DNA of 64,000 bases from Rhizopus arrhizus (lineage: Eukaryota > Mucoromycota > Mucoromycetes > Mucorales > Rhizopodaceae): positions 1,116,001-1,180,000 of the forward strand of contig JAKZZE010000016.1 in NCBI GenBank assembly GCA_024220505.1, read 5' to 3'. The stretch's first letter is position 1. Each line of letters begins with the position of its first letter. Position numbers and translations under genes: made by a program. Below are positions 3,639 through 58,430 of this stretch, one piece after another. The notes under the pieces were generated by a model that saw only the letters and a program-made list of their open reading frames with translations, searched no databases and was not told the DNA's origin.

Positions 3639-3654
3639 TTCTTCGGTAGTATAG
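3639..3654. repeat. Target site duplication of LINE-T1 (displaced tRNA-Asp 5' end)
   Basis: Sixteen bases identical to 8656-8671, the first 15 nt of tRNA-Asp plus one upstream base. This copy is an orphan tRNA 5' fragment at the LINE tail. Confidence 0.95.
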
Positions 3655-3916
3655 ACGAAGATTTTTATTAATATATATAAGGAGTATATTGACAAGCGAT
3701 AAATATCATGATAGTCATACTCAAGAAACAAAAAGAAAAGACAAGAGGCAAAAAACACTCGCAGAGCACACAAGAGCGAAAAAAAGGAAAGAGAAAGGCC
3801 AATGGAAACGCTAACTACTGAGCAACTCGTCAACACCATGGTCTCCTCCGCATCGTGCACTAAAATGGTTTGGCAGTGGGAGGTAGAAGCCAGAGGGTGG
3901 ATCAGAGCGCTTGTCA

Positions 3917-6900
3917 TTATGGAACAGCAGCAGCAGAGGACTTGTCAATCCAGACTTGACCTGGCAGAGAAGACGAGTTGTACTCGATGTCAGGATGACA
4001 GATCTTGTCAAAGTGACAGAGGATCTGACAAAGAGCGGACCAGAAAGGCGGACACCGAGCAGAAGCAGAGACAGGAAGCAAGTTCAAGACATAGTCTATG
4101 TGGTGACCCACATAGTCAGGCGGCGGAACAGGCAAGCAGCACCAGAGAGCAGAAGGAACCAAGGTACAGACCATAAGGTGCGAGCGAGAAGTATCGCCAA
4201 GACCACAAGAACAGGGAGCAGGCTTGCCTGGGATCCAACCCATGCGCCATCTGATGAGACGAGACCGGTCAGCACGGGAGGCAGGCAAGTAGAGGATGGG
4301 ATCCACCCGAAGAACAGGACGACAAGCGCGGATCAGAACCTGGGGAGTGGACTGTAAAAAGCTTTGAAATTGATCTTGACGATACCTTCGCAACCAAGAA
4401 GCAAGACAAGAAGAAGAGATAGGAGCATCCGAAGGGTAATCAAGAACGATTTGCCGCTTACGGAGCTGTGTCAGCAATGAAGACGAGACAGAAGAAGACA
4501 GCAGAGACAAGAGACAGTCATCAGGAAGGCCATTGAACCGAAGGCAGAACTTCAGAACCAAGGTATCAGCTCTAAAAGTCATTGATGGCAAGTTGGTAAT
4601 GTGCCGAAGCACCACAGTCGAAGCAGTTCGGTGACCACCGACAAGCATTCGTAGACACCGATCTTGAGCACGGTTAAGCTCTTCACCGTCCTTTCTTGTA
4701 AGTCGAGCAATAGCTAGGCCATACTCGAGCTTAGGACGGATGAAGGCAGCAAAGAGACGAGAAGAAAGAAGCAGAGTAAAGCCTTGACGGTTAAGACCCA
4801 TAGAGTGAAGTTGAGCCATAGCCGCCAAGGTACTGGAAGAACGATGCTTTATCATGGCAGACACCGAGATACCTTTACCATCAAAAGGTACACCAAGATA
4901 AGTAAACTCTTCAGCAGTAGGAAGGTCTTGATCATATAGAGACATTCGAATATACCGACTTGATGTAGAGGCAGGTGCATTCAGAACAGCACATTTGGGT
5001 GGACTCCACTTGTAACCAAGAGTCAGAGAATGGATCTGCGCTAGGTCCAGCATATGCCGAACTTCGCTAGCAGACCCAACCAGCGCCACATCATCCGCAT
5101 ACAACAGACTGTTGATGGGTGTGGGCGTAGGAGACGAGGAAGACAAAGCAGCAGTACCAACCAAAGGACCAAAGGGAAGACCATCAGTGACCAGAGCACC
5201 AGGACCAGGAGTGCCAGAAGGAGACACCGATAACACCGAGGTGGTTGTTGCAGAAGCAGCAGAACGAAGCAGAGCTGGCAATGTGTTGACATAGATCGAG
5301 TACAGGTGAGGACTCAAGACAGAGCCCTGAAGGACACCTGTACTCGGCACAAACGGATCAGAGACATTGTTCTGCAACAACACAGACACCGAGACATCAT
5401 CAAACATGTCGGCCAACAAGGACACCAAGGACAGAGGAGCAGAAGAGGCGAGCATCGATTGCCATATGATACGACGATCGACTGTATCATAGGCTGACTT
5501 GATATCCAGAAAAGCGACCACAGGATAATGATTGTGTCGGCGTCGGTAAGAGTGCATTAGATCATGAAGACAGAGAGCTTGATCCAATGCACTACGCTGG
5601 TGACGGAAACCACCTTGAACTACATCGAGCGGAGGAGAGACATCTTCAACAAAGGGAAAGAGACACATCTCAAAGAGCTTGCGAACGATGGAGGTCAAGG
5701 AGATTGGACGATAGTTCCCTGGCGAGGTAGGATCACCCTTTTTGTGGATGGGGACCACCTGTGCTTGACGCCAGAGAGAAGGGGTATACGACCACTGGTA
5801 GCAGATACTAAAGAGCAAGGAGAGCAGTGGGGCCAGAACAGACTTGATGGGGAGGAGCATCTCCGTACGCAAGTGGTCAGGACCAGGAGCCTTACGCAGA
5901 GGGAGACGTCGCATCAGTGAACCCACACTGTCAGCAGAGAACGAGGGCATACCAGGGTCTTGACTATCGAGGTCAAAAGGCACCATACCAGAGACAGAGG
6001 GCAGAGGGTCAGGACGCCTTGACGGAAGACCGTCACCAGAGTAGACCGAGGCAAGGTGTTGACGCATCGCGTTCGCACCTGCAGCAGGGCCGTCAGGATG
6101 AGTAAACCCAACCTGTTGACGTCGTCGGTTCCGAATCACCTTCACCTTCGACATCGCACGAGCAAGTTCGCCACGGGCCAGAGAGTCACAGAAAGCACGC
6201 CAAGAGAGACGTTTGGCAGACTTGAGAGCAGAGCGGAAACGGACTTGAGCAACCTGATGTCGATCCCACCACAAGGCCTTGTCGATGCCAATGGCTCGAC
6301 GCCATTTGCGGTAGTGGTGTTCACGAACATCGGCGAGTTCTTGCAAGTGCGTATTCCAGAATGGCTTCCATTGGGAAGGTCGAGAAGAGCGAGAGCCAAC
6401 CGACTTGTTGAGTGCACTATAGATCGCCTCGTTCAGAGTGTCATTGAGAGCGTCTATAGGCGGAGCAGCAGAAGGAGGACTTGACTTCAGAGCTGTGAGC
6501 TGATCAACCAATGGAGAGACCAAGGACTGGAATGTGGCCACGTACAGACTACAGACATCGGGTTCCTTCAACCGAGAGAGGTTCCATAGCCGACGGGCAG
6601 AAGAAGAAGAAGAGAGAACGGGCTGCGATGGATAACCATCAGGGACTGCATAGTCAAAGGACAAGGACAACAGTTTGTGGTCAGAGCCAAGAGAGAGATC
6701 ACTATAGACTTGCATCCGAGGGGACCGAAGGACAGAGGTCATGTTGGTCAAGAAGTAGTCGATCATACTTTGCTTGACTTGACCACCACGAAAGGACAAG
6801 AAAGTAGGCACCCCAGGAGCGAGAGTCGAGTTCAGAACAGAGAGACCATGTTCTTCACACCAGCGAAGCAGCACCGAACCTCGAGCATTGGCAACGGAAT

Positions 6901-7486
6901 CACCCGTTAGTGCACCAAGACGCGCGTTCAGATCACCACAGATGATCGTATCGTCTGTCAAGGGCAACGAAACCAACACAGAAGAGACCTCGTCGTTGGA
7001 CAAGGAAGGGGGCAAATACAGGCAGATGAGACGCAAGGAGCGACCCAACCGCAGACCCAGAGCATACTTGGTATGAACCGGGAACTGTACCACAGCCATC
7101 GGACACCGAGGAGACACCAGAGCAGAGACACCTTGAGAGCCACGATAGCTGTTGATCACAGGAGAGCCATACAGATTGAACTGGGTCCAAGAGGTACGGA
7201 TCCTGTGAGGCGGGAGCAACCAGGTTTCGGTGATGAAGACCAAGGAAAACGACTGGCAGTGACGAAGAAGATCTTCGGCTGTGGATTCTTGAAGCCCATT
7301 GGCATTCCACAAGCCGATTGTGAGCGGGATAAATGATGATGAGGATGACAAAGGAGAGGATGGACCATGGGAGCCATGAGAACCAGAGGAAACCAAAGGA
7401 GAGGAAGGAGATGACAGATCTGGGACCATACCAGATGTAGCAGAGACCGAGGATGCATTATAACGACAAGTATTACTACTCATCAT
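3917..7486 (-). CDS. LINE-T1 ORF2: apurinic-type endonuclease and reverse transcriptase
   Basis: A 1189-residue frame. The N-terminal third is an APE-type endonuclease: LWNANGLQ, ITETW, CGDLNARLG and GSDHK motifs in order. The central third is a reverse transcriptase: KAPGPDHL, VVPIHKKGDP, FLDIKSAYD, GVLQGSVLSP and LLYADD. About 50 Ser/Pro/Gly/Thr-rich residues are inserted between the GSVLSP and YADD motifs. The C-terminus has a CSC..H..C zinc-knuckle-like pattern and no RNase H. It would nick target DNA and prime reverse transcription of the element RNA. The ATG overlaps the stop of ORF1 (TAATG), suggesting termination-reinitiation. It is very close to ORF2 of LINE-T2, with differences concentrated in the segment after the RT. 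Confidence 0.95.
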   Translation of the reverse strand: MMSSNTCRYNASSVSATSGMVPDLSSPSSPLVSSGSHGSHGPSSPLSSSSSFIPLTIGLWNANGLQESTAEDLLRHCQSFSLVFITETWLLPPHRIRTSWTQFNLYGSPVINSYRGSQGVSALVSPRCPMAVVQFPVHTKYALGLRLGRSLRLICLYLPPSLSNDEVSSVLVSLPLTDDTIICGDLNARLGALTGDSVANARGSVLLRWCEEHGLSVLNSTLAPGVPTFLSFRGGQVKQSMIDYFLTNMTSVLRSPRMQVYSDLSLGSDHKLLSLSFDYAVPDGYPSQPVLSSSSSARRLWNLSRLKEPDVCSLYVATFQSLVSPLVDQLTALKSSPPSAAPPIDALNDTLNEAIYSALNKSVGSRSSRPSQWKPFWNTHLQELADVREHHYRKWRRAIGIDKALWWDRHQVAQVRFRSALKSAKRLSWRAFCDSLARGELARAMSKVKVIRNRRRQQVGFTHPDGPAAGANAMRQHLASVYSGDGLPSRRPDPLPSVSGMVPFDLDSQDPGMPSFSADSVGSLMRRLPLRKAPGPDHLRTEMLLPIKSVLAPLLSLLFSICYQWSYTPSLWRQAQVVPIHKKGDPTSPGNYRPISLTSIVRKLFEMCLFPFVEDVSPPLDVVQGGFRHQRSALDQALCLHDLMHSYRRRHNHYPVVAFLDIKSAYDTVDRRIIWQSMLASSAPLSLVSLLADMFDDVSVSVLLQNNVSDPFVPSTGVLQGSVLSPHLYSIYVNTLPALLRSAASATTTSVLSVSPSGTPGPGALVTDGLPFGPLVGTAALSSSSPTPTPINSLLYADDVALVGSASEVRHMLDLAQIHSLTLGYKWSPPKCAVLNAPASTSSRYIRMSLYDQDLPTAEEFTYLGVPFDGKGISVSAMIKHRSSSTLAAMAQLHSMGLNRQGFTLLLSSRLFAAFIRPKLEYGLAIARLTRKDGEELNRAQDRCLRMLVGGHRTASTVVLRHITNLPSMTFRADTLVLKFCLRFNGLPDDCLLSLLSSSVSSSLLTQLRKRQIVLDYPSDAPISSSCLASWLRRYRQDQFQSFLQSTPQVLIRACRPVLRVDPILYLPASRADRSRLIRWRMGWIPGKPAPCSCGLGDTSRSHLMVCTLVPSALWCCLPVPPPDYVGHHIDYVLNLLPVSASARCPPFWSALCQILCHFDKICHPDIEYNSSSLPGQVWIDKSSAAAVP

Positions 7487-8457
7487 TATAATGATCCAAA
7501 GCTTGAACGAGAGGCAGGACGGTCTTGATCATACTGATCCAGAAGCATTTCATCGTCGGGTTGGTCACGATGGCGAGGGAAAGCAGGACGATCTTGCTTG
7601 GCAGCCAAAACATCAGAAACAGCTTCGTCAGACACCATGGCATTGGCCAAAAAGAAACGAGAGACAGCAACAGCAACAGGATAGCGCAAGCGCTCAAGGG
7701 TACGAAGACAGCGTTCATTGGATATATAGGCCATCTTTTCTTGACGTACCTCAAGAGACGCAGAAGCAAAAGCAGGGTCGGCAACGTTGTCAGGATCCAA
7801 GGGATCGAACTGATCAAGGATCTTGATCTTTGCTTTCTCAAGCAAAGAGACGAGAGCAGGCTTGTATTGAAGGTGAACAAGCAGACCAACAACGGAGTGA
7901 GCGGGGAAAGAAACATCCAACACCCGCCAGGTATCAACACCCAAGCGACCAAGACGACGACGAGCTTCAGTGTAAGTCATCTTACGGGATCGAGGTATAT
8001 AAATATATTCAAAGCCTTGCTCACCAGTAACAGGCTGAAAACCACGAGCAGCAGCGGCACGGCGACGGAGTTTGTTCTTGGAACCACGAGAAGCAACAGT
8101 AGCCCAAGAAGAGGCAGCAGTACCCAAGGAGGGCGAAGAAACGGTCTCTTTAGCACCATTTGGGGCACCAGGAGAAGAAGCAGCGGCATTTGAACTTGGG
8201 GTGTCCATAGGGGCCCCGGCGGTTTGTGCGGCTAATTGAGCACGCAAAGAATCAATTTCATTGGCCTGATTCTTGGTCAGTTCCAACAAGCGAGCGTTTT
8301 CAAGCTGGAGTTGCTCTAAGGCACTCAAGCGGGCAGTAAGATCTTGGTAAGCAGCAGCCAAGGACTGGAGTGTGACGTCAGCATTTGAATTTGCTGAGTT
8401 AGAGGAGGCGGCGGCGTTGGGGATCCTTGAACCCAAGTTTTTTCTTAAGGGTCCCAT
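7486..8457 (-). CDS. LINE-T1 ORF1: coiled-coil, nucleic-acid-binding-type protein
   Basis: A 323-residue frame upstream of ORF2. Residues about 30-80 have heptad-like Leu spacing (coiled coil), then an Ala/Ser/Pro linker, then a very basic KNKLRRRAAAARGF segment, then a compact domain with GFEYIYIPRSR and YTEARRRLGRLGVDTWRVLDV. Such ORF1 proteins bind the element RNA (family knowledge). The start ATG at 8457 is near a 200-nt leader that begins at the tRNA junction. It differs from the LINE-T2 ORF1 much more than the two ORF2 proteins differ from each other. Confidence 0.85.
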   Translation of the reverse strand: MGPLRKNLGSRIPNAAASSNSANSNADVTLQSLAAAYQDLTARLSALEQLQLENARLLELTKNQANEIDSLRAQLAAQTAGAPMDTPSSNAAASSPGAPNGAKETVSSPSLGTAASSWATVASRGSKNKLRRRAAAARGFQPVTGEQGFEYIYIPRSRKMTYTEARRRLGRLGVDTWRVLDVSFPAHSVVGLLVHLQYKPALVSLLEKAKIKILDQFDPLDPDNVADPAFASASLEVRQEKMAYISNERCLRTLERLRYPVAVAVSRFFLANAMVSDEAVSDVLAAKQDRPAFPRHRDQPDDEMLLDQYDQDRPASRSSFGSL

Positions 8458-8656
8458 ATTCTTTGTTAAACTTGAAACTGGAAAAAAGCGATGTAAACTT
8501 GACGTATTCGAAAAATTAAAGAAACCAAAAGGTGTATTTTTGAAAGATGAATCGAATGGTGCAAAAATTGGAGATGGATGGCTTGATTTGGTGGAGTTAT
8601 CGGCTTTTTTGAAAAATAAACAAGTTTACCTTTTTAACCAAAAGCGAAAGAAAAGT

Positions 8657-8728
8657 TCTTCGGTAGTATAGTGGTGAGTATCCCCGCCTGTCACGCGGGA
8701 GACCGGGGTTCAATTCCCCGCCGGAGAG
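8657..8728 (+). tRNA. tRNA-Asp (anticodon GTC)
   Basis: A 72-nt cloverleaf: acceptor TCTTCGG pairs with CCGGAGA (one T-G), box A TAGTATAGTGG, anticodon stem CCCGC/GCGGG at 8683-8687/8695-8699 with GTC at 8690-8692, and box B GGTTCAATTCC. No intron and no encoded CCA. A TTTT run at 8751-8754 is a likely Pol III terminator. The first 15 nt are the target duplication made by LINE-T1, so the gene survived the insertion but lost its native upstream flank. Confidence 0.97.
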
Positions 8729-8828
8729 TAATTCCCATAATCGTCACGTATTTTGATCATAATTTTGGTATGTTTGTCGAAGCAAGTTATTGTAGCATAA
8801 ATGATGAAATTTTGGATCTGAAGAACGT

Positions 8829-9439
8829 TGTAACACACAAGAATAAAACGGCGGAATTTAAATCGTTGCAGTTTACAATGTAACAAACAAGAATGAAACG
8901 TCGGAATTTAAATCGTTGCAGTTTATAACGAACGCCTTGCAGTTTACAACAACCACCTTACACTATACAACAACCGCCTCTTATGTTATAACAACCATTC
9001 AAAATACCAAAAACAGAACAAAATCATAAAACCCAAAAACATATAAATAACCTCACATAATAATCTCAAAAAATATTACTTCACTTCTAACTTCCTAACT
9101 TCTCTCTTATTTATTTTTACTTTTTCTTTTTATCAAATAAATATTCTTTTAAAGAGGCAAACTATCTCTTATTTTATTTAACATCAAGAACAAGAAGTCC
9201 CTTGAAGCTATTATACTTCATTGTAAATCCCCTTTTTTATTTTACTTTATCTTTTTATTTTTATTCTACCTTAACTAAAACAGTTTGATCTACTTTATAA
9301 GATCTGGTGGTCACTATAACAAGCGAATCAAACCAAATCCAACTCATATAAAAACAATTATTATATCAATTACAACTTAAATCTGTTTATTTAAACCTCA
9401 ACTCAACACACTCAAACGAACTAGTAAAAATTTATTACA
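8829..9439 (+). repeat. Solo LTR, family LTR-A, 100 bp downstream of tRNA-Asp
   Basis: Starts TGTAACACAC and ends TTTATTACA, with a 4-bp duplication ACGT at 8825-8828 and 9440-9443. It matches, in inverse orientation, the solo LTR at 57466-58029. A 50-bp stretch at its start is duplicated in tandem (8829-8878 and 8879 onward), which explains its extra length. It contains a CATATAAATA box and the recurrent TGGTGGTCACT motif at 9305-9315. No internal retrotransposon genes remain. Confidence 0.85.
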
Positions 9440-9494
9440 ACGTCATACCTTTTGTTCCACTTTTGTTGTTGTAACACCACTACGGCGCAAAGAA

Positions 9495-9568
9495 TCCTGC
9501 TTGAAGGATACGAATACTGCTTGAAGGATACGAATACTGCTTGAAGGATACGAATACTGCTTGAAGCA
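9495..9568 (+). repeat. 20-bp subterminal tandem repeat of the CACTA-like element
   Basis: The unit GAATACTGCTTGAAGGATAC is repeated about 3.5 times next to the left inverted repeat. Subterminal arrays of this kind are usual transposase-binding regions in CACTA elements (family knowledge). Copy B has essentially one unit at the matching end (near 35500-35520). Confidence 0.8.
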
Positions 9569-11028
9569 TTTTTTTACAGTGCTACTGGTGTATTTTTGAG
9601 TTTATTTTTTGGTTGTTCTCCGCATTTTTTTTTAAAATGCTCCATTCATTTTTATCGCTCCACCTTTTTTTTTTTTGCAGGTAAATATTGAAATGGGCTG
9701 GATCTACTTGGCAAAATCACTTTTTAAACTATATAAAACCTGAGTTTTGCTGTTAAAAGACGTAACGAACCGATATTACACAACTTGCATTTTCTGCATT
9801 ATGATTGTAATGGTCGTAAAAAAAGATTCCTTTTCATTAGTTTTTTTAAGCAATTACAAAGAAAGTAGATTGTGTACAATTTTTTATTTTTTTAAAAAAA
9901 ACATTCTGCGACTCTCTTTTTTGTTTCTATCTTGAACTATATTTTATGGTTGTTTTTAGAATAGATAATTTGCAACAACAAAAAAAGAGACAACTTATAA
10001 CTCCATTACTGCCAAAAATGTAAAAAAAGAACAAAGCTTACGTTTTTTTAAGCCTCTGTCACTTGTCGTATCTTAAACCACCTCCACATCTTGTGCTCTA
10101 GCTGATATGTTTTTTAATGGAAACTTAAAATGTGAAAAAGAAGACATGTAAGCATTATGGCAAAGAGTCAGTAATGCACCTGTACCTTTAGTTCTATTTA
10201 TTTTAGCAAATTTAAACAAGATATGCTTTAATTGCTGTAACTTTTCTTTGTATCCAATTGTAGTACTGCTTCATTATACTTTTACTAGTCGAGTTACATT
10301 ACAAACTTTTTATGTTAATTGAACTGAGAGTAATTTGTCATAGTTGTGAATCTTTATTTTTTTGTATTAAATATGAAGGAATAAACTGAAGAATATAAAT
10401 GCGTAATAGATATAAAAAAGAGTTGTATAAACTATTATCAAATTCAGACCATATACAATAAAGTAATTTGTTTATAAATTACTTCTTCATTGGGTAAAAA
10501 TATTGATTTGAGTAGGTTGACCTTTGTTATTATACTTTTTCTCTGTTATAGTCAGTTTAATTGAAGCCAAAGGAATTCAATCTGTTTGACTACTAACAAT
10601 TGTTGTAATCATGAATTAAATAAACTGAATTTCAAAAATAATAATAATAAAAGAAAAAAAAAAAAAAAACGAGTTTGCAAATGCTCTGGGATGACGTCGT
10701 TATAACTTACAAGTGTTTCAAAAAGTACAAGAAACTTCCGATTGTACTTCTTTTCTTTCTTCATGTAATCCTGCTACGAAATTCTTACGGCTCGTAATTA
10801 TTTTTACTATTCTAAACACTTGCTAACAATTAAACTGTTATTATCTATCTTGTACCTTAATCTAGTTTTTACAATTATTTAACAAGAATTAGCTTTTTTT
10901 TAAGGTAAATAGTGATCGTTTGTTGATATACATTGCATCTAATGTATGTTTATAGTATATGAGCTACATTCCGTTTAGTCCTATGCTTTATGAAATATTT
11001 AGTAGAAAAAAAGTCTTTATTTGGTAGG

Positions 11029-11060
<32 letters not shown>

Positions 11061-11563
11061 ATACAAGTTCAGTACTCATAATGAAAAAAATCTTATTTTG
11101 ATTAGCATATTGGATATAAGGCTATAAATCCCTTTAACAATAACGTAACACTGTAGAGATAATGGAAGGTGTCAAATAACATATCATTTTGCAGTGCAAC
11201 TTGTTAACAGATACAAAACCTGAAGCTTTGTTTAAAAACTCTTAAAACGATTTTTTTTATTACAGCTACAAAACGTATAAAAATAGTTTCTTGTAAAAGG
11301 TTTTAAGCATAGAAACATATGCATAGAATTTATTTGGATTATAGTCGAAGAGTGATTTACGTGAATACAGCAATACATAAGAGAAGATTAGATATATATT
11401 TTGGATGGAGTTTTGATGGTAATTAAAAAAAAAAAAAAAGGAACATGGAAAAAGAAGTTATTAAATCATAGACATAGGCATAAAAGCATAAAAAAATAAA
11501 AAAAAAGAAGGCTACATAAATGAAATGAAGAAAAAGGCATTAAAGATCGGAAAGCATACCATT

Positions 11564-11629
11564 ATGTCTACCACCCGTTCTGCCACTCGTCCTACTTCTC
11601 GTCGTCAAAATAAAAAGAGAAGAATATAA
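11564..11629 (+). other. Conserved 21-codon micro-ORF inside CACTA copy A
   Basis: ATG at 11564 to TAA at 11627-11629. The peptide is Arg/Ser/Thr-rich (starts MSTTRS, ends QNKKRRI) and reappears in copy B (33401-33466, minus) with one residue changed (Ala to Gly). GC content is higher than in the AT-rich surroundings. It could be a leftover exon of a lost gene or a real small peptide; not decided. Confidence 0.3.
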
Positions 11630-13394
11630 TTGTTTCTTTTTCCTTTTATTGTTTTATCTTTTGTTAAATAAATTCTACTATTGTTTGTTAAATGTCGTTT
11701 AGAATTGTCTTGTCATGACTAGATCTCCATGATGGTAATGTTGGTACTTTTTTATATAGCTTAGTTATTATTCTTCAATGCCATTGGTCCTATGACGTTA
11801 ATTATATGAAATAAACTTGCATGGATTTTAAAGCATTTTTTTATTTATTTTTTTTTTATGGCTCTTCTTTTTTTTTTTCGTATATTCATTATTACTCTAC
11901 TTTGTTAACAGTTTTTGATACTTTTAGTTATTGCTGATATGCACCATGTTTTGAAAACAAAATAGCTAAAACTAAATCAGCTCAAACAGTCAACGCATTA
12001 CAAATGAAAAAAAAAATAACAATTATTATGTTGCATGGGTATGAAGTTGTTGAATGTTGTATTCCTTTTAACCATTTCTTTTTATCTTTGCTTATAGTAA
12101 GCTCTAGTATTCTTTTACTTCAAATATTGCGAGAGCTTTAGTCAAACAAGACGTTTTTAACGAATGGTTCACTAATGAAAAGAAAGCTTAGTTATGGTTA
12201 CATTACAACATGCAACAACCCTTGCTCTTCCTTATATCTTTATTTGTATTTCTTTCCGCTCCTTACCTTGACGCTTTACTGACTCTATCTGTAGTGTGCA
12301 ACCTAGCTGTATAATCAATACTCTATCATGCTGTAGACCAGTTTGTCGCAACTATTCATCCTCTGCTTTTGTATACTATGCTTGGTGTGTTGTTTCATAT
12401 TGTGTATGCTGTTGATATTAGGTAAAATTATACTCTATGCTGCTTCAGATAGATTGAACCTTAACCAACAACATATTGTATAGATAGTATGTTTGAACAA
12501 GACAAAAGGTATAATTTGTTTGCTTGTTATTTTTTCTTAACTGATGTTTCTTATTTATTAGATTTTAATACTTTGTTTTATTTTGCAATGTGGATTTTGT
12601 ATGAAGCGACTGTGATGATATTAACGATAACAGCAATGATGATAGAGTATTATGAAACCCAATAAAGCATAGGCGCACGGACTTGAGGAAAAGTAACAAT
12701 GGTTGTATAAGACAATTATCCATCATGTGATAAAAAAAAAAAAAGGAAAACAATTTTCGTAAATAGAAGTAAAATTGCACATGTTTAAATATTAATTATT
12801 CTGTTGAATGTAGATTGCAATGTAGATTGTTGAAAGTAATTAAATCTGCTAAATGGGTTGCATTGAATATTGTCGAGGACAGGTAAGTAATGACGTACGA
12901 TTATATTGGATCTGTTCATTCTGTATTCCTTTTCTTTTATTATTCCTTTTCATTTGTTATTATTTTTTTTTGTTATTACTTTTTTTTTTTATTCAAATGT
13001 ATATTAAATGAATAACATAATAAAATAAATAAAGCATCGTATTATTAAATCATTTAAATTTGTCCATTTATACTGCCCTATACAATAATAAGCCTACCCA
13101 TTTTACTGGACATAATTGATTAAACATAGCCATACTCTGCTTATATACAGAACAGCTAATGTCTGCCTCGTCCAATTAAATTGTTATACTTTAGACCAAT
13201 TTTACTCCATTTTACTCCAATTTTGCCTCATCCAATTAAATTGTTATGTGAAAGCGTATGAGAGTTCATGTAGCATCATGTTTTATTCCAATTTTATTCT
13301 AAATTATGCTAAATTCGACATTTTTAGCATCTTTATTTTACTAATCCGCGCCTACAATGAGTGTTATGCGGAGATTTTTTGCGCCGTAGTGCAC

Positions 13395-15854: not shown

Positions 15855-15865
15855 TATCTTACTTA

Positions 15866-39900: not shown

Positions 39901-39902
39901 TA

Positions 39903-47751: not shown

Positions 47752-47755
47752 CCAA

Positions 47756-49151: not shown

Positions 49152-49265
49152 GTTTTGTTATTTATTTGCTTGATGATATTTTTTTTTGATAATAAAGTCG
49201 ATATATATATTGTTGAAAAACTGTTGTGTAACTTTTTGTTTCATTTTTTTTTTTTTTTTTTCACT

Positions 49266-50615
49266 TTACTGAAACAATTCATTCGTTTCCTTGTCCAAAA
49301 CCAAACTTGAAACATTTCTCTCGTTTTCAGCGTTCCACATTGTATTTGGTATAACATACGGTTTCAGTCTATTCCCATGAACTCTTCTTATCCGAGTATC
49401 ATTTGGATTCGTATTTTTAATGTGATACGTTCCTTTTCCCAAGTTATTTTGAATGATGTAAGGGCCTTCCCATTTGTCTTGTAGCTTTCCCGACCAAGAT
49501 GTAGACATATAATCTTTGTACAGGAGAACCATATCACCGAGTCTGAAAGGGGGCTTCAGTTCTTTTCGTTCATCTAAGATCTTGTTTTCTATAGCTTTCT
49601 TTTGAGCAGCCTGAGTTTGCTTAATGGCCTGTGCTGATTGCTCACGCACCCAATTAAGATTATGAATTTGGTGAGTGGTCCTGTGCCATAACACTGTTTC
49701 AAATTTGTGAGAGCTTTTCTCAAATACTCGATTGTCTATATCAAACGGCGTTTTTGGTTCATAGCCATACATTAAGAAAAATAGCGACTGTTTTGTCGTA
49801 GCTTGCTTAATTGAACGATATGCAAATAAGGTAGCTGGTAGATAGAGATCCCAGTCTTCTTTTTCAGTGTCTGATCGTTTTTGTAGAATCTGACCAAGTG
49901 TTCGATTGAATCTTTCAATCAGGCCATTACTTTGTGGGTTGTACGGTGTTGTAGTCTTGTGAATAATAGAATAAGCTTGGCAAACTTTTCGTACCAAACC
50001 ACTTAAGAAAGGTTTTCCGTTATCAGTAACCATGATGGTTGGGCATCCATGTCTGCAAATAATATCTTCGTATAGAAATAGGGCAATCTCTGAAGAAGTC
50101 TGAAATCGTAACGGTCTTGCTTCAACATATTTTGTGAGGTAATCAATTGCTGCGACAATATACCGGTGTCCTGATCTTGAGGTTTGTACGTGTTTCACGT
50201 CCAATGCCACTCTATCAAAAGGTTTTATTGAAACGGGAACTGGATAAAGTTCTTCTTTCAATGATTTTTTCCCAAAGACTTGGCATCTAGAACACGTTTG
50301 GACGTATTCAAAAATATCCTTCGCCATGTTGTCCCAATAGTACCGAGTTGCAATTTTATGTAAGGTATTATTGTATGCTAAGTGTCCACCTAGAGGATGT
50401 TGATGATACGCATTCATCATTTCTTGGGCTTCTTGCTTGTTGAGAACCTTTCGTATGGTTCCATTTTCCGTATTGTATCTATATAATGTGTCTTTGTACA
50501 AAGTGAAATTAGGGGATTCCCTAATGAGGAATTTTTGTAAGCTTCTTGTTTCATCTTCTGGAATTTGCATAGTTTGCAAATAAGTTGCCATCTGATCGAT
50601 TTTTCGTTGTTCCAT
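49266..50615 (-). CDS. Integrase ORF of the Ty3-like element
   Basis: 449 residues. Zinc domain H-H-C-C (H73/H78 region, C108, C111), catalytic core Asp139 (ALDV), Asp198 (VTDNG) and Glu234 (LIERF), spacing D35E. Near the C-terminus is a GPY-type module (WEGPYIIQNNLGKGTYHIK) and no chromodomain. It starts with its own ATG after a 244-nt gap behind the RNase H stop, whereas integrase is normally fused to RT in Ty3-like Pol. The frame is open, so either a spliced or reinitiated product is made, or the fusion was broken. Confidence 0.92.
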   Translation of the reverse strand: MEQRKIDQMATYLQTMQIPEDETRSLQKFLIRESPNFTLYKDTLYRYNTENGTIRKVLNKQEAQEMMNAYHQHPLGGHLAYNNTLHKIATRYYWDNMAKDIFEYVQTCSRCQVFGKKSLKEELYPVPVSIKPFDRVALDVKHVQTSRSGHRYIVAAIDYLTKYVEARPLRFQTSSEIALFLYEDIICRHGCPTIMVTDNGKPFLSGLVRKVCQAYSIIHKTTTPYNPQSNGLIERFNRTLGQILQKRSDTEKEDWDLYLPATLFAYRSIKQATTKQSLFFLMYGYEPKTPFDIDNRVFEKSSHKFETVLWHRTTHQIHNLNWVREQSAQAIKQTQAAQKKAIENKILDERKELKPPFRLGDMVLLYKDYMSTSWSGKLQDKWEGPYIIQNNLGKGTYHIKNTNPNDTRIRRVHGNRLKPYVIPNTMWNAENERNVSSLVLDKETNELFQ

Positions 50616-53204
50616 TTTTTGATATATTATTATTTTGTGTTACTGTTTTGAGTTTTTGCAATCTTATTGTTTCAGGATTTCTTTTGTTGATGTGGAATTT
50701 CTTTTTTTTTTTTTCTGCTTAATTTGGTTTTGTACTGTTTTTAATGAATTTTTCAGGATTATTTATTTCAACTACCCCTCCCTGCCTCCATGTAGTTTGA
50801 TAAAAATATAAAGTTGATAATATATACAAGTTGTTAATTAATTGTGAGTGTTGAGTTTTCTAGTATCCGAGTCGAGATAGGAAGTCGGCGCTTTCGTTGA
50901 CTCTTCCAGGTCGATACTTCACCTCGAATTCATATTCTGATAAGATAGTAATCCATCTGGCGATTATTCCAGTGGGATTTGGCGTTTTTAGCAACCCATT
51001 TAGAGCCGAGTGATCGGTAATCACGGTAAACTTTTTTCCAAGTAAATAGGGACGGAATAATTTTACTGCCCATATGACTGCCAAACATTCTAATTTAGTG
51101 GGAGCGTAATTCGATTCAGTTGACTTGAGGCCACGACTTGCATAGACAATTGGGTGTTCATGACCATTTTCATCCAATTGGGTTAATATAGCACCAAGTC
51201 CTAATTTGGATGCGTCGGTTACTAGTATAAATGGTTTGTTGAAGTCAGGTCTTGACAAGATAGGTGCAGTAGTAAGTAATTTCTTTAATGTTTCAAATGA
51301 TTCAGTAGTCAAGCTTGTCCAAGGGATTTTCTTTGTGGTTTTTGTTTGATCATGCAAAGGTCTTGCAATAGCAGCAAAGTTCTTAATAAAACGTCTATAA
51401 TAGGATGCTATTCCAAGGAATCCTCGAACTTGTTTAATTGTTCTTGGTTGTGGATATTCGACTATTTTTTGAATTTTACTAGGATCTGTTTGCAATCCTT
51501 CTTTAGTAACGATATATCCAAGAAATTTAAGATGGTCCTTGAAGAAGAAACATTTTTCTGGATTTAATTTGAGATTCGCTACTTGGATGCATTAAAACAC
51601 TTGTTCTAAATGTTGCAATTGATCTTGATGATTGAGAGAATATACATTTAGGTCGTCAATGTAAGCGACTAAACACTTGTTGATAAGAGGCCGGAAGCAT
51701 AAATCTATTAATCGTTGAAAAGTTGCTGGGGAATTTGCAAGACCCATTGGCAGTGTGTTATAATGATACGTGCCAAACTTTGTTGTGAAAGCTGTTAGTT
51801 CTTTACTATCTTCTTCCAGGGGAACTTGATGAAATCCAGCTCGCATATCCAAAGCTGAGAAAACTTTTGCCTTGCCTAATGTATCCAGCAAATCATCAAT
51901 GCGAGGTAAGGGATAGGCGTCTTTCTTTGTAACTGAATTTAGCTTTCTATAATCTATCACCATTCTGTATTCGCCATTCTTCTTTTTTACTAATATCACA
52001 GGGGCTGCCCAGGGACTATTTGATGGAGCAATTACACCCAACTTGCAATATTTATCTAATTCTTTTTGCAGATGCTCAGTCTCGATAGGACTCATGCGAT
52101 AAGGTCGATGACTTATAGGCATAGTATCTTCTTTTATCGTGATCTTATGCTTTATCAAGTTTGTGTATCCGATTGTGTTATTGTCCCAATCAAATATATT
52201 CTCGTACTTCTTTAGTAACTTCTGTAAGCTTTGTTTAATATCTTGACTTATTTCTCCGACTTCAAGTTTCATATATTTGTCCGGTTCTAGCAGCGTGCTT
52301 TCTTCATTCTTTTCTTTATTATTTGATTCAGACATTTCCATCACACACAAGTGAGGATTCGTGTCAACATTATATGCTTGTACTATGGAATCTTCCTGTG
52401 GATTGATCTTTTCAATGATGCCGATTTCTTCATCAGGGTCCAATAATATATCTTTTGATGATCGATTGTATATTCGAATCTCTATACTTCTACGATTTGT
52501 GATCAGATTTAAACAAGAGTCAAAATATCCCATGGCATTCATTATTTTAGGGTTTGTTATTTCCAAGTTATATATTATATCCTTCCTTTCGTTCTTCAAC
52601 TTTCTGATCCATATTGTTTTTGAAGTATTTGATGCTATAGTCAATCCATGTGAAGGAGCTTTCAGTAGCATGTCATTTCCTTGACTTAATACGTTTATGT
52701 CGTCTTCTTTATCATTTTCCAATAATAGAAGCGATTCGTCTTCTTCATCTTCTAATTCTTCTTCTGTCGATTCCTCTGAGCTGTCTTCAGATTCTTCGTC
52801 TTGATCTGTGCTATCGTCATCATGTTGTGGTTCTGCTTCAAAGCGTACATGTTTGGTTTCCTTTGAGTTTGTTAGGCTGATAGGGTGTTCATACTTCTGA
52901 GTATAGCTTGAGACTTTTGGCAATGTCGTATTTTTTCTTAAAAAGGATATTTCTAATTCAGCTTTCTTGTTTTTATATGCCACCTTTAGTGTTGAACTAT
53001 TGAAGTCAATTTTGGCTTTTGCTCTATTTAACCAATTGTTTCCAATAATAAGTGGGTTGGGACAAGAGGGTAAGACTTCTACAGTGCATGGAATGATCAT
53101 GTTGTCCTTGACACATATAGGTACGTCATATATAATTCCTAAAGCAGGCTGTTTGGTTCCATTTCCTAAGGTGAATATACTTTCAGAGGCAGCATCAATA
53201 TATA

Positions 53205-54840
53205 CAGTGGGTCAAAAAACTGCACCAACCTAACCTAATTTTTCGGAAATAAGAGCACAGGTCCGTCAGTTTTATAGCAAACATTATGAAACTTGAACCA
53301 AACAAAGTTAATATTATTATGATTTATTGACAAAACTTTCAAAGTCAGAAGCTGAGTATAAACTTAAAGCGCATTCAGAAAAAAGCGGAGGTCGGTTGGT
53401 GCAGTTTTTTGACTTTTAAAATAAAAATGGGTTTGATATGATATACCCGGACTGAGACCTTTCCGGCAGATTTAAATTAGTCTGTGGAGTATCTAGTCAC
53501 ATTGGGGACCTTAAAATAAACTTTTTTGCAATTTTTTTTCTTTTTTTTCTTTCCTACTTTACCCAAACGCATCATATATTGCCAGTGTCCATTCATCAGT
53601 AGAAATGCCCAAAACGCTTCCATCCGATGTTCAAAACAGTATCAAAGCACTATTAGAAGATAACATTGACCCTACAGTTATTGGGAAACGAGTTGGAGTG
53701 CATAGAAACACCGTTAATAGGTATGCAAAAAAGTGGATGCATAATAGAATACGTAAAAGTGGAGGTAGACCGAGCATTGTGACAGAATTAACGCGTCGAT
53801 ACATCAAGGGACAAGTACTAACGTGTTATTTGAAGACTGCCAAGGATGTGCAAATGAAGTTAGAGGAGCTTGGACACCCTATGTCGTATCAATCGGCGAT
53901 CAATGTTTTACATTCAGTTGAAATTTATGCTGAGATCAAAAAGAAGAAGCCATTATTGACTGAAAAGCACAAGAAAGCTTGATTGGCATGGGCCAAAAAG
54001 CATCAATATTGGACAGTACATGACTTGCGTCGTATGATCTTTTCTGATGAGACCAAAATTAACATTTGGGGCTCGGATGGTTGCAAAGATTATTGGAAAA
54101 GAAAATGCGATCGTTTACAGCCCCATGATATCGACGTTACTGTGAAGCATGGAGGCGGTGGTCTCATGTTATGGGGTTGTATAACCAGCGCAGGACCTGG
54201 ATATGCATGTCAGGACTATAATGGTGCCATGAATTCAGAGCTGTACCAAGAAATTCTTGCTACAAGTCTGAAGGACACCATGGAATACTATGGTCTGAAT
54301 TGGAAAACATCGGTATTTCAGCACGACAATGATCCTAAACATCGATGAATATCCACAACGCGATGAATGAAAGATAGTGGCATGGCTTACATTGACGATT
54401 GGCCATCACAAAGTCCAGATTTTAATCCTATTGAAGAGGTATGGCATCATTTGAAGTTAAAGCTGAGCATGTATGATAATAGGGCGACCAGCATCTATGA
54501 GCTGTGGGAAAGAGTCGAAAATGAATGGAATTCGTTTACTAAGAAACAATGCATCAAATATATAGACAATTTGCCCGCCAGAATACAAGCAGTATTAGCA
54601 GAAAAGGGTGGATCCACTCGATTTTAAGAAAGTCAAAAAACTGCACCAACCGACCTCCGCTTTTTTCTGAATGCGCTTTAAGTTTATACTCAGCTTCTGA
54701 CTTTGAAAGTTTTGTCAATAAATCATAATAATATTAACTTTGTTTGGTTCAAGTTTCATAATGTTTGCTATAAAACTGACGGACCTGTGCTCTTATTTCC
54801 GAAAAATTAGGTTAGGTTGGTGCAGTTTTTTGACCCACTG
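53205..54840 (+). mobile_element. Mariner M3, copy b, in the protease of the Ty3-like element
   Basis: Ends as in M3-a, TA on both sides (53203-53204, 54841-54842), 1636 bp. Removing it and one TA restores the pol frame exactly. Confidence 0.95.
53605..54627 (+). pseudogene. M3-b transposase (DD35E) with three stops
   Basis: Full length, no frameshift: MPKTLPSDVQNSIKALLED to GGSTRF. Three TGA codons (53980-53982 for Arg, 54346-54348 for Ser, and near 54364 for Trp) relative to M3-a. The stops of M3-a and M3-b are at different places, so they died independently. Confidence 0.9.
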
Positions 54841-55574
54841 TAAACCAAGTGTGTCAGCGAGAGCTTTAGACATGCATGTTTTTGCTGCACCACAATCAAT
54901 CAAGGTCTTGATAGATTTATCTCCAATATTAACTTTAGAGTATACTGCTGTGGTGTTTATATCCTCATCTTCTATAACTGCCATAGTTTCTTCCGGGTTG
55001 GTGACTTCAACAGGGATTCGTATGGGACGGCAAGCTGCGGCCATATTTCTTCGTAACTTAGGTGCTGCGACCATAAGGTCTCCAACAGTTATATCTGCTT
55101 TCTTATTTAAGACGTCCGACACTATGTCATAATTTAATGGAGGTGCCTTCGTTTTTCTTTTTGGTTTCTTGACCGTTCTGCTAGTTTGCATTATTTGTTC
55201 TGTTTCCATAGCTTCGGGTTGACGTGTGACAACAGGCTGATGTGAAATCAATGGTTGTTGTGTGATTATGGGTTGATGCGTAATGATAGGTTGTGTAGTA
55301 GTAACATCATTTACTTTACCCTTGGCTTTTGCGGTTGATCTCCTAACTCTTTCTCGTGTGCCTTTGCTTGGTTTTTCGTATGGAATGCTTGTAGTGACTT
55401 CAGGTGGGTACTCTGGTCTTACAGCTGCATATAAATCGTGTGTAAAGGCTGGTAAATAGGTTTCGCTTTGTGTGAGGAGTGCATTGAGATTGTGGGGTTG
55501 ATTATTAATGGATTTGTTATATTTTTGGTTATTCGATTGACCATTACTTTCATTTTTGAAAGCAACCGAACCAA

Positions 55575-56810
55575 CTAGTTTTTTGACTGGTTAGGTTGTT
55601 GTGTTTGAGGCTGTTGCGGGAGCGGTCTGTTATATTGCGGATGGTAAGTTTGATTATTAAAGTTATTTCTGTTTCGTCCTTGATTGCTATAGTCTTGTCT
55701 TCCGTAATTATTATCATTACGTTGGTAACCATTGTTATTATAAATATTATTATTGTAGTCGTTATTGTTATAACCGTTATTGTTGTAATCGTTATTGTTA
55801 TTTTGGTGTTGATTCTGATAATTATCATTGTAGCGATTACGACGATTGTAATTTCTAACAGGGCTTTGATACTGCTGTTGATTACCCAATTCATTTCGGA
55901 TGGTTTGTTGAATAAGATTGACCAGATCCTGTTGATGATTATGTTGACTAGGATATGTTCCATTGTTCCTTTGAACTTGATGAGGATAATTTTGAGCATG
56001 ATAATTATTACGAGTGATCTCCAATGTTGATAGTTGGTTAGGACCAGTTACAATTTGAGGGTTAGGCATTACAGTGTTAATCATTCCGTAAGGATGTAAG
56101 TTAGAGATTGGGATTACTTGAGCAGGCCTTTCGTTTGCATCAATCAACTCTATATTATGATCATTTGATGGGTATCTCTGATGATAAACACCATCATCAT
56201 GATATATGAGAGCGTTGTTTACATTTCTTGGTATAAATGGGTTGTCGACCATTGCGATCTTGCGTGGACGATTTGCGTTCCACCATCCTTCTGCGTGGTT
56301 TAACCAATCTTGAAATGTTCTAGCACTGCTTTGTATACAAAATTGTTTGATATCCCTTAATAAGCCTGCGCGAAAGCGGCTTTCAATTACGGCCTCACTG
56401 GTGATGTTGGCCAAATCAGCGGCTTCACGTAATCTTGAAAGGAATATTTGAGGATGTTCTTGCTCTCCTTGGATCATATCATTGAATTCCAATTCATAAT
56501 TCTGAATTAATTCAGGAGTAATATAGTGACTTTTCAAATGTTCCATAGCTTCATCGTAAGTCACTTGAGGATGATCCTTGAGTATAGTTTTTTCAAAGTA
56601 GATTTTAGCAGCTCTACGTAGTTGAGATTTGAGAATAGCGAGTTTGCGATTGTCACTATGAGTATTGCTGAGTATAAGGTAGGAATCCAGTAGCTCTTGA
56701 AAATGACGGAAGTCTTCGCCTTCATAGCCATAGAATTCGATTAATTTAGGACGATATCCTTGAACTTGGTTGCTGTTTTGCACCAACGCGATAGGTTCTG
56801 TAGTTGCCAT
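55575..56810 (-). CDS. Gag of the Ty3-like element
   Basis: 411 residues from MATTEPIALVQNSNQ. The middle is a retrotransposon-gag type capsid region (FRHFQELLDSYLILSNTHSD, RAAKIYFEKTIL, FQDWLNHAEGWW). The C-terminal 130 residues are Asn/Gln-rich with repeated YNNNGYNNND and Arg, with no CCHC knuckle. The stop TAG at 55575-55577 follows directly on the slippery heptamer. Confidence 0.9.
   Translation of the reverse strand: MATTEPIALVQNSNQVQGYRPKLIEFYGYEGEDFRHFQELLDSYLILSNTHSDNRKLAILKSQLRRAAKIYFEKTILKDHPQVTYDEAMEHLKSHYITPELIQNYELEFNDMIQGEQEHPQIFLSRLREAADLANITSEAVIESRFRAGLLRDIKQFCIQSSARTFQDWLNHAEGWWNANRPRKIAMVDNPFIPRNVNNALIYHDDGVYHQRYPSNDHNIELIDANERPAQVIPISNLHPYGMINTVMPNPQIVTGPNQLSTLEITRNNYHAQNYPHQVQRNNGTYPSQHNHQQDLVNLIQQTIRNELGNQQQYQSPVRNYNRRNRYNDNYQNQHQNNNNDYNNNGYNNNDYNNNIYNNNGYQRNDNNYGRQDYSNQGRNRNNFNNQTYHPQYNRPLPQQPQTQQPNQSKN
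55578..55584 (-). promoter_or_regulatory. -1 ribosomal frameshift site at the gag-pol junction
   Basis: Minus strand A AAA AAC in the gag phase, followed at once by the gag stop TAG. The -1 frame is the open protease-RT frame. Fifteen nt beyond the heptamer is a perfect 6-bp hairpin (CTTTCA AAAA TGAAAG). Confidence 0.8.
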
Positions 56811-56895
56811 TGTTGATAATAACTGTTTTGATATTGTTGATTCGATTTTGAATAAGTTCTTTTGATTAGTTTGATTGATTTCTTGATTTGATTTA

Positions 56896-56916
56896 ATTCC
56901 CTCGTAGTGACCACCA
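56896..56916 (-). promoter_or_regulatory. Candidate primer binding site
   Basis: Two bases inside the 5' LTR the minus strand reads TGGTGGTCACTACGAGGGA, starting with TGG as tRNA-primed sites do. The matching tRNA could not be named: a tRNA 3' end built from it does not show a normal T arm. The first 11 bases also occur in the same sense within the LTRs. Confidence 0.5.
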
Positions 56917-56918
56917 AA

Positions 56919-58047
56919 TGTAATTTTTTGTTACTTCAATGGCTTGTAAGAGTTAACGGTTTTGAAATAGAGTAAAGTTGATGAAAATGGATAAAAAAAT
57001 AAGAGTTGGGTAGAGTATTGATATTAGGTTCGCTTGTAAGTGACCACCAGATCTTGTTAAGTAGATCAAACTTGTTTGTAATAAAATAACTTGATAAGAG
57101 TTTTAAGAGTGTTTACAATGAAGATAATTGACTTCAAGGGACTTGTCTTGCTTGTGTTTTAAGAGTGTTATACCAAAAGATTCAGGGATAAAGATACTTG
57201 ATTTATTGGATAAAATATATTTAAGATAAGTAAAGTTAAAATATATATAAGTCAAGAGAAGTGAAGTAAAATAAAAATAAAAGCTTGTCTATTTTATAGA
57301 CAAAAGAAAATAAAGTTTGATTTTTGAAGTAAGCTTTTCTTTTTGAAATAAGCTTTACGTTTTGAAATAAGGTTTGATTTTTGAAATAAGCTTCAATTTT
57401 TGAAATAAAGTTCAAAAATTGAACAAGGTTCAATATGGGGTACTCACTAGGCGCAATCGTCATAATGTAATAAATTTTTACTAGTTCGCTTGAGTGTGTT
57501 GAGTTGAGGTTTAAATAAACAGATTTAAGTTGTAATTGGTATAATAATTGCTTTTATATGAGTTGGATTGGCTTGATTCGCTTGTTATAGTGACCACCAG
57601 ATCTTATAAAGTAGATCAAACTGTTTTAGTTAAGGTAGAATAAAAATAAAAAGATAAAGTAAAATAAAAAAGGGGATTTACAATGAAGTATAATAGCTTC
57701 AAGGGACTTCTTGTTCTTGATGTTAAATAAAATAAGAGATAGTTTGCCTCTTTAAAAGAATATTTATTTGATAAAAAGAAAAAGTAAAAATAAAATAAGA
57801 GAGAAGTTAGGAAGTTAGAAGTTAAGAAGTCATATTTTTTGAGATTATTATGTGAGGTTATTTATATGTTTTTGGGTTTTATGATTTTGTTCTGTTTTTG
57901 GTATTTTGAATGGTTGTTATAACATAAGAGGCGGTTGTTGTATAGTGTAAGGTGGTTGTTGTAAACTGCAAGGCGTTCGTTATAAACTGCAACGATTTAA
58001 ATTCCGACGTTTCATTCCTGTTTGTTACAATAATTTGCTTCGTCACA
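56919..58047 (-). repeat. 5' LTR of the Ty3-like element, interrupted by a solo LTR
   Basis: 56919-57465 plus 58034-58047 form a 561-bp LTR; the solo LTR-A and its duplicated ATAA lie between. Only one 19-bp unit (57364-57382). Confidence 0.93.
57466..58029 (-). repeat. Solo LTR-A inside the Ty3-like LTR
   Basis: Starts TGTAATAAATTTTTAC and ends TTTGTTACA (plus strand), duplication ATAA at 57462-57465 and 58030-58033. Inverse counterpart of 8829-9439 with high identity. TGGTGGTCACT motif at 57589-57599 (minus). Confidence 0.92.
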
Positions 58048-58156
58048 CCAAAAAAAAAAAAAAAAAAAGCGATCATTCTCAAACCATAAAAAAAAAATAA
58101 AATAAACCATAATCGTTAATCCGTGCTTCAAATCATCGAAGACAAGTGTCGAGATT

Positions 58157-58228
58157 GGGCTTCTCCGGGAATCGAACCCGGGACCTCTCGCACCCTAAGC
58201 GAGAATTATACCACTAAACCAAGAAGCC
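58157..58228 (-). tRNA. tRNA-Pro (anticodon AGG)
   Basis: The minus strand gives acceptor GGCTTCT pairing AGAAGCC, box A TTTAGTGGTATAA, anticodon stem CTCGC/GCGAG with loop TTAGGGT, and box B GGTTCGATTCC. 72 nt including the discriminator, no intron. A TTTT run about 56 nt downstream (58098-58101 on the plus strand as AAAA) may end transcription. Its first 15 nt plus one upstream base are the target duplication of LINE-T2. Confidence 0.97.
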
Positions 58229-58430
58229 AAGAACGCCTTTTCTTTCGCTTTTGGTTAAAAAGGTAAACTTGACTCTTTTTTGGAAAGCCGATATCTCTGT
58301 CAAATCTATCCATCCATCAACAATTTTTACATCAATCGACTCCTTTTGATCTATACTTTTATTTGGTCCAACTCTTATTCTGATATCTTTACTGCTTGTT
58401 GCTTAATCGTGGCTGAAAGTTTGCATCCAA

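Follow-up and report, generated by a model that had tools for sequence, protein, structure and literature searches.

Two LINEs abut intact tRNA genes in the window

The window analyzed here, a stretch of 64,000 nucleotides (nt) of the Rhizopus arrhizus genome (GenBank assembly GCA_024220505.1, contig JAKZZE010000016.1, positions 1,116,001 to 1,180,000), contains two tRNA genes according to ARAGORN, for Asp and Pro, and each is abutted by a long interspersed nuclear element (LINE), here called T1 and T2. We observe insertion of these LINEs at one fixed point, tRNA nt 14, with an intact tRNA gene and with copies stacked beside it. The first-pass annotation of this DNA had placed T1 at tRNA-Asp and T2 at tRNA-Pro, with the LINE 5' ends ("heads") pointing at the tRNA 5' ends, divergent transcription of LINE and tRNA, and both tRNA genes intact, and all of this is present. 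The main features, including the open reading frames (ORFs), are as follows.

8656..8729, plus strand: tRNA-Asp (GTC), intact, nt 1 at 8657 (ARAGORN); one of 12 copies
3654..8655, minus strand: LINE T1, full length, head abutting tRNA-Asp; a chimera of lineage C 5' untranslated region (UTR) and ORF1 with lineage A ORF2 and 3' UTR
7486..8457, minus strand: T1 ORF1, its stop overlapping the start of ORF2
3917..7486, minus strand: T1 ORF2, apurinic-like (APE-type) endonuclease and reverse transcriptase (RT); Pfam PF14529, PF03372, PF00078
8657..8670, plus strand: tRNA-Asp nt 1 to 14, duplication copy proximal to the gene
3640..3653, plus strand: tRNA-Asp nt 1 to 14, distal duplication copy, behind the T1 3' end
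58157..58228, minus strand: tRNA-Pro (AGG), intact (ARAGORN)
58215..58228, minus strand: tRNA-Pro nt 1 to 14, duplication copy proximal to the gene
58230..63231, plus strand: LINE T2, full length, abutting tRNA-Pro; head proper from 58237
58431..59417, plus strand: T2 ORF1
59417..62965, plus strand: T2 ORF2, APE-type endonuclease and RT (PF14529, PF03372, PF00078)
63232..63245, minus strand: tRNA-Pro nt 1 to 14, distal duplication copy, behind the T2 3' end
63247..64000, plus strand: LINE T3, in tandem to T2, its head directly after the T2 duplication; runs beyond the window

T1 and T2 are two-ORF elements of 5 kb each, and the endonuclease and RT domains in their ORF2 identify both as APE-type LINEs. 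The RT matches the LINE-1 ORF2p and R2 chains by sequence, and T2 ORF2 carries a CCHC-like motif near its C terminus (residue 1085); a Pfam search with T1 ORF1 gave no family. A 16-base string, TTCTTCGGTAGTATAG, occurs at both 3639-3654 and 8656-8671, flanking T1 and also forming the tRNA-Asp 5' end, and another, CTAAACCAAGAAGCCA, occurs at 58214-58229 and 63231-63246, flanking T2 and forming the tRNA-Pro 5' end.

Heads stand behind tRNA sequence throughout the genome

The whole assembly (50.26 Mb, 41 contigs, window included) was searched; the searches report best candidates, and all genome counts given below are therefore lower bounds. The head pattern of 32 bases contains no tRNA letters, allows up to 3 mismatches and finds unbroken heads only. 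It matches 77 places, against 0 for a reversed-pattern control, and all 77 are preceded by nt 14 to 1 of a tRNA (73 exactly, 3 with one difference, and 1 with two). This is the genome-wide listing of what lies 5' of each head that the first-pass annotation had called for, and it bears out the proposal of one LINE lineage that uses one fixed tRNA coordinate at many isoacceptors and rebuilds the tRNA. An Rfam tRNA search scored 63 of 2,878 candidates, a sample and not a census. In a protein comparison that scored the 7,988 candidates with the most words in common with the query, the closest named protein was from Rhizopus delemar, at 89% identity over 90% of the query.

Intact tRNA genes carry 20 of the 77 heads, at 11 isoacceptors (Asp, Pro-AGG, Gly-TCC, Gly-GCC, His, Ala-TGC, Val-AAC, Val-TAC, Gln-TTG, Cys, and Thr-TGT). 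In front of the remaining 57, ARAGORN detects no tRNA gene within 130 bases; a copy of nt 14 to 1 is present instead, and in the rows read these copies stand behind LINE or SINE (short interspersed nuclear element) tails. With 73 of 77 copies exact, the duplications have decayed too little to serve as a test of stack age. A LINE or SINE head abuts 8 of the 12 tRNA-Asp genes. One of the remaining four has a start resembling a long terminal repeat (LTR) 11 bases upstream, and one has a DNA transposon with CACTGC ends at 59 bases; at L193, a sequence also found beside the broken SINE head L164 lies about 9 bases upstream, and L191 has other sequence. Among the best candidates, 36 of 40 ORF2 match rows are free of internal stops, so the family looks young.

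The duplication covers tRNA nt 1 to 14

The first-pass annotation had read the 16-bp strings flanking T1 and T2 as a target duplication from tRNA position -1 to 15. The strings are there, but the letters at both of their ends point to a shorter duplication. Nucleotide 15 is A in tRNA-Gly-TCC and tRNA-Gln and G in the other tRNAs compared, and the 13 tail contexts at tRNA-Gly-TCC (7 LINE, 6 SINE) have TTCGTC immediately before the complement of A14. Since TTCGTC precedes the complement of nt 14 even where nt 15 is A, its C is the element's own letter, with the primer ending at nt 14 (or at 13, nt 14 being A throughout).

On the other side, 67 of the 77 LINE heads are directly preceded by A irrespective of the tRNA: an extra stretch ending in A separates nt 1 from the head in these 67, and in 45 of the 77 it is a single A. 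SINE heads are preceded by A in 35 of 37 cases and by C in the remaining 2. At the four tRNA-Asp genes that lack such a head, the -1 base is A once and T three times. An A before heads at any tRNA, against mostly T at head-free tRNA-Asp genes, indicates that the -1 base probably lies outside the duplication. The minimal duplication is thus nt 1 to 14, with the letter opposite nt 15 contributed by the element.

Tails carry the same target at the other end

A first tail pattern was dropped because it included target letters (CTA) from the tRNA side and was hence biased; its replacement lies internal in the 3' UTR, and tail contexts sharing the same downstream 70 bases were merged. LINE tails occur at 54 places, representing 53 distinct contexts, of which 48 run into tRNA nt 14 to 1; 4 of the other 5 (L130, L131, L138, L140) are cut by unrelated sequence before the element ends. 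SINE tails occur at 39 places (37 contexts), with 35 contexts at tRNAs, 1 interrupted (L170), and 1 off target (L178). Counting uninterrupted tails, 48 of 49 LINE and 35 of 36 SINE contexts are at tRNAs, and lineage A is found at eight isoacceptors by its tails. The 3' end at these tRNAs is TTCGTC in 45 of 48 LINE and 35 of 35 SINE contexts; a constant 3' end is thus joined to the target duplication, as expected of target-primed reverse transcription. The A-run ahead of TTCGTC varies in length (to about 20) at L134 and L139, with TTCGTC itself constant, which suggests slippage in reverse transcription.

Both ends agree on the target. In lineage A, the isoacceptor in front of the head matches that behind the tail in all 29 LINEs for which both were located (a script assigned 27, and the 2 that miss one base ahead of the head read as Pro). 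Agreement is likewise seen in 5 of 5 lineage C LINEs and 18 of 20 SINEs, the exceptions being one Ala/Asp element and one with an interrupted tail. These matching duplications, together with mixed LINE and SINE content and 20 direct LINE junctions at 11 isoacceptors, argue against recombination or segmental duplication, in place of repeated insertion, as the source of the arrays and shared flanks. That explanation, to which the single SINE with Ala and Asp sides (C34:18.6-19.1 kb) does lend itself, we find scarcely credible.

The SINE that shares the site, family B, is about 550 bp long. Box A and box B motifs, identified by visual inspection in its tRNA-like head, mark it as a tRNA-derived SINE; it sits at the same tRNA site and has its TTCGTC 3' end in common with the lineage A LINE. 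Within the window, it is represented together with a further element beyond T1.

3582..3638, minus strand: tRNA-derived SINE (family B), 5' end at the same tRNA site, interrupted after 57 bases; older than T1 by position
1..3581, minus strand: DNA transposon with CACTGC start, in the SINE head; other end beyond the window

Probable movement of elements between isoacceptors

Copies that are 100% identical over 1.34 kb stand at Gly-TCC and at Pro, and the same two are identical over their first 1,532 bases; other copies, at Asp and Pro, are 99.9% identical. On a tree of 30 lineage A 3' ends from five isoacceptors, the isoacceptor label changes 12 times (minimum, 4), compared with a mean of 14.0 for shuffled labels, which reach values as low as 12 in 16 of 200 shuffles. 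Ala copies by themselves show some clustering, with 4 changes, a value that 13 of 500 shuffles match or undercut.

A second, probable record of movement is found in the extra bases before some heads. In T2, seven extra bases (58230-58236) precede the head, and together with the preceding A they are the antisense of tRNA-Gly-TCC nt 1 to 8, although the T2 target is Pro. Heads with at least 5 extra bases number seven, and 6 of these contain antisense pieces (5 to 9 nt) of tRNA 5' ends; 4 of the 6 pieces come from an isoacceptor other than the target. Shuffles scored as high in 0 of 3,001 cases. On the simplest reading, the source transcripts started inside a neighboring tRNA copy, in which case the pieces are traces of a move from Gly to Pro and of moves that left Pro for Gly, Ala, and Asp; alternatively, they may stem from template switching.

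These observations bear on the idea of an RNA guide, in which read-through transcripts carrying a flanking tRNA copy would anneal to the same tRNA gene and home there. Each element is indeed followed by the 14-nt complement of its target, and the antisense pieces at some 5' ends suggest that flank-containing transcripts exist. Identical elements nevertheless stand at different isoacceptors, the tree labels are little clustered, and the 5' pieces derive from a nontarget isoacceptor in 4 of 6 cases. Homing by flank is disfavored by the tree labels and the antisense pieces, and we consider it very improbable.

Target letters and LINE lineages

Three lineages were distinguished: lineage A, to which the ORF2 of T1 and T2 belongs; lineage C, with an ORF2 67 to 68% identical to that of T2 at the amino acid level (over the part compared); and a distant lineage (37%), which has its own tail, seen in 3 contexts at tRNA-Thr. 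Classed by their heads, 57 A-type elements stand at tRNAs whose nt 13 is A or T (W13), and C-type elements stand at Cys or Thr in 17 cases and at W13 tRNAs in 3. Nucleotide 13 thus splits the tRNAs between the head types, and DNA letters therefore matter. In 2 of the 3 C-type-headed elements at W13 tRNAs, the ORF2 is of lineage A. The nine lineage C tails are at Cys (8) and Thr (1); an initial restriction of lineage C to Cys was dropped, as L194 at tRNA-Thr belongs to lineage C.

T1 is one of two chimeras. Over alignment columns 40 to 1200, it is 88 to 96% identical to lineage C and 51 to 78% identical to T2, and over columns 1500 to 3900 it is 93 to 99% identical to T2 and 61 to 74% identical to C; at columns 3900 to 4500, identity to T2 is 82 to 83%, yet T1 is still closer to T2 than to C. 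Because this element, with the 5' UTR and ORF1 of lineage C and the ORF2 and 3' UTR of lineage A, sits at an A-type target, the choice of target appears to go with ORF2 and the 3' end. As a separate observation, the first 40 columns of the LINE head are 92 to 100% identical among T1, T2, and two lineage C copies, and over columns 120 to 300 T2 is merely 51 to 53% identical to T1 and these copies; the head may serve as LINE promoter, as tRNA 5' flank, or as both.

All nine tRNAs bearing A-type heads contain the degenerate box A word TRGYNWA^RTKG; the rest of nt 1 to 14 is varied, and nt 1 to 7 are divergent (mean, 2.6 of 7 identical). A plain word-only rule would hold that this word suffices and that tRNA genes are hit as its carriers. 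In its favor, all nine tRNAs contain the word, which occurs just twice in the window, each time at a used site. A sample of about 154 kb (distinct DNA) gave 31 word contexts, of which 6 lie away from the tRNA starts on the list: three come from one simple repeat, one lies in a different tRNA gene, and one is tRNA-like. This scales roughly to the order of a thousand in 50 Mb, on a sample that is small and biased. The word by itself thus appears too common, and hence insufficient, to explain the targeting: it occurs off tRNAs, where hardly any uninterrupted tail of either element is seen. We regard the word-only rule as improbable. The first-pass annotation had suggested that the tRNA gene structure or its bound factors, and not a fixed DNA word, guide nicking; the argument against a fixed word survives insofar as the word alone looks insufficient, and it fails insofar as the letters matter, given the box A word in nine tRNAs and the split at nt 13.

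At the opposite extreme is pure tethering, in which the ORF proteins would bind the RNA polymerase III (Pol III) complex (TFIIIB/TFIIIC), the cut would be fixed by distance, and letters would hardly matter. The fixed tRNA coordinate in spite of divergent nt 1 to 7 speaks for it, as does a tnp2-type transposon of the same genome that lies 54 to 58 bases from LINE or SINE 5' ends and 59 from a bare tRNA-Asp. In the dictyostelid element TRE5-A, moreover, the ORF1 protein binds TFIIIB, and mutation of box B abolishes targeting, according to PMC5911963. The split of tRNAs by nt 13 is contrary to this view, and so is a boundary exact to about 1 base, compared with the 40 to 54 bp range listed for TRE5 there. 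Tethering without a role for letters is accordingly a possibility that we take seriously but hold to be unlikely.

A proposed mechanism and what weighs against it

We consider it probable that T1, T2, and T3 represent an APE-type LINE family for which tRNA genes are a self-renewing landing site, with the following course of events. The ORF2 endonuclease would act within box A, nicking the sense strand of the tRNA gene at A14^R15; the LINE 3' end is joined to the strand with tRNA nt 1 to 14, which, given target-primed reverse transcription, would place the first nick on the sense strand. The freed 3' end would prime reverse transcription of the element RNA, and the second strand would be cut about 14 nt off, at the tRNA 5' end. 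Fill-in of the stagger would restore nt 1 to 14 against nt 15 onward and make the tRNA gene whole again, so that the rebuilt gene could be hit again and older copies would be pushed outward. ORF2, or ORF2 with the RNA 3' end, would read the target from box A letters, chiefly nt 13, and this reading would occur in the context of the tRNA gene, probably with Pol III factors; ORF1 would not determine target choice.

We give even chances to a more specific formulation, in which one LINE enzyme treats box A of many isoacceptors as a site class, nicks A14^R15 and rebuilds the genes, the LINE/SINE stacks are time-ordered with the youngest nearest the gene, and ORF2 holds a code for tRNA subclasses (W versus C at nt 13) that is swapped in chimeras such as T1.

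Several observations weigh against this explanation. Two uninterrupted tails, of the LINE L123 (C18:416 kb) and the SINE L178 (C1:2386 kb), end at non-tRNA sites. Among the best candidates, 10 of 39 lineage A ORF2 copies have no unbroken head at the expected distance and 29 have one; these ten lie outside the set of 77. In five of them (L180, L182, L183, L186, L187), a CACTGC-type transposon end joins the LINE about 55 to 70 bases in. In L184, the junction is at about head base 7, and the sequence beyond it recurs, 99% identical, about 6 kb off (L052), like the two LTRs of an inserted element, and L163, just ahead of the L052 copy, is a head start following a tRNA-Pro duplication; in L181, L188, and L189, the break lies further into the element. 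The tenth, L185 (C14:1027.7-1029.1 kb, lineage A), is joined near head base 6 to unexplained non-tRNA sequence, with no match in the genome DNA compared; its 3' end carries a tRNA-Asp copy. The SINE at C34:18624-19147 (L136, L108) is flanked 5' by tRNA-Ala and 3' by tRNA-Asp sequence and probably arose by recombination between two stacks. Whether the cut is at nt 13 or at nt 14 is ambiguous, as all 11 tRNAs compared have A at nt 14, and the window, where the word is found only at the two tRNAs, fits a word-only rule. For most C-type heads, the class is known from the head itself, and the range of lineage C may be wider than its nine tails show. The chimera argument is based on two elements, and in T1 the ORF2 and the RNA 3' end are both of type A and thus inseparable as the source of choice. 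Finally, a role of Pol III is drawn from analogy and from the distances of a different transposon.

The off-tRNA tails L123 and L178 have the flanks CTACATTAGTT and CTATTTGTCTATG.

Other elements linked to tRNA genes

The DNA transposon at the edge of the window contains a tnp2-type transposase frame at 3-1076 (PF02992; E value, 7.9e-16). CACTGC-ended transposons recur at base 54 to 58 in 19 of 77 LINE heads and at base 55 to 57 in 7 of 37 SINE heads, and one lies 59 upstream of a bare tRNA-Asp (loci include window 1-3581, L012, L015, L016, L031, L033, L036, L038, L069, L071, L192, and others). The LINE head and the SINE head share no sequence relationship; this transposon therefore likely takes its cue from the distance to the tRNA and would represent a further tRNA-targeting mechanism. 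Judged from these distances, it is plausible by analogy that Pol III complexes mark the sites, with the proviso that this transposon is different from the LINE. Noncoding bodies behind some heads had been considered a second LINE-headed family; this was rejected, as they are CACTGC-ended DNA transposons.

LTR-like starts are observed about 9 to 11 bp upstream of tRNA starts or similarly deep in LINE or SINE heads (L190, L193, L164, and L163 with L184), and long-RT elements are observed about 4 kb from tRNAs (e.g., C16:414675 and C23:29907). A link of Ty3-like elements to tRNAs in Rhizopus has been published (PMC2699053). Within the window, the inverted stretches 8879-9336 and 57568-58029 are 99 to 100% identical and start about 130 to 150 bp downstream of tRNA-Asp and tRNA-Pro, which suggests an element family landing downstream of tRNA genes.

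Comparison with known tRNA-targeting elements

One exact point within many tRNA genes, with the genes left whole, offers the family a gene-safe site many times over in the genome. Chimeras that arose naturally allow a direct test of which part of the LINE picks the target, and identical elements at different tRNAs offer a controlled comparison of target letters.

The dictyostelid non-LTR elements TRE5/TRE3 and NLTR-A/NLTR-B have been reported at sites outside the mature tRNA; Dp_NLTR-A, 2 to 6 bp upstream of it, comes closest among those found described (PMC5006619 and PMC5911963, in the passages at hand). Like them, as far as these passages go, the Rhizopus LINE combines an APE endonuclease with RT, uses many tRNA genes, and is oriented opposite to the tRNA (stated for TRE5). 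Unlike them, it cuts at nt 14 in box A, duplicates nt 1 to 14, and shares its site with a SINE; a duplication inside the tRNA gene is not stated for the dictyostelid elements in the same passages. The contrast that the first-pass annotation drew with the TRE elements, reported outside the gene, holds, since insertion here is at nt 14 and not at a fixed distance outside the mature tRNA. NLTR elements are also described there as carrying RNase H, and Pfam detects none in T1 or T2.

NeSL relatives use a restriction-like endonuclease, whereas the LINEs described here contain an APE domain. NeSL-1_TV (tRNA-Pro), LIN15_SM (tRNA-Arg), and LIN25_SM (tRNA-Glu) are, like them, non-LTR elements specific to tRNA genes (PMC4640811), but in the part of that source at hand each is listed with one isoacceptor, while the APE enzyme here serves eight by tails.

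Dada DNA transposons also target box A: in several tRNA genes they enter at an equivalent position (nt 8 to 13), with 6-bp duplications, and they are described as disrupting these genes (PMC8869645). The use of an equivalent box A position in several tRNA genes is common to both; Dada elements are DNA transposons that move without reverse transcription, whereas the Rhizopus LINE has an RT and duplicates nt 1 to 14.

For Rhizopus oryzae, the available text of PMC2699053 states tRNA colocalization for LTR elements and gives LINEs as 3.78% of the assembly; Figure S1 of that paper covers "some transposable elements" and may include LINEs. The likeness lies in tRNA-linked retroelements, which by the text are LTR elements there, in what is probably a related fungus. 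An APE-type LINE duplicating tRNA nt 1 to 14 at many isoacceptors was not found in the literature searched, with most subscription papers outside its scope; a term search of PMC4133162 likewise gave nothing. The tRNA-targeted LINEs described in the sources consulted either insert next to tRNA genes or are assigned to a single tRNA, and a site inside many tRNA genes sets the Rhizopus family apart from them.

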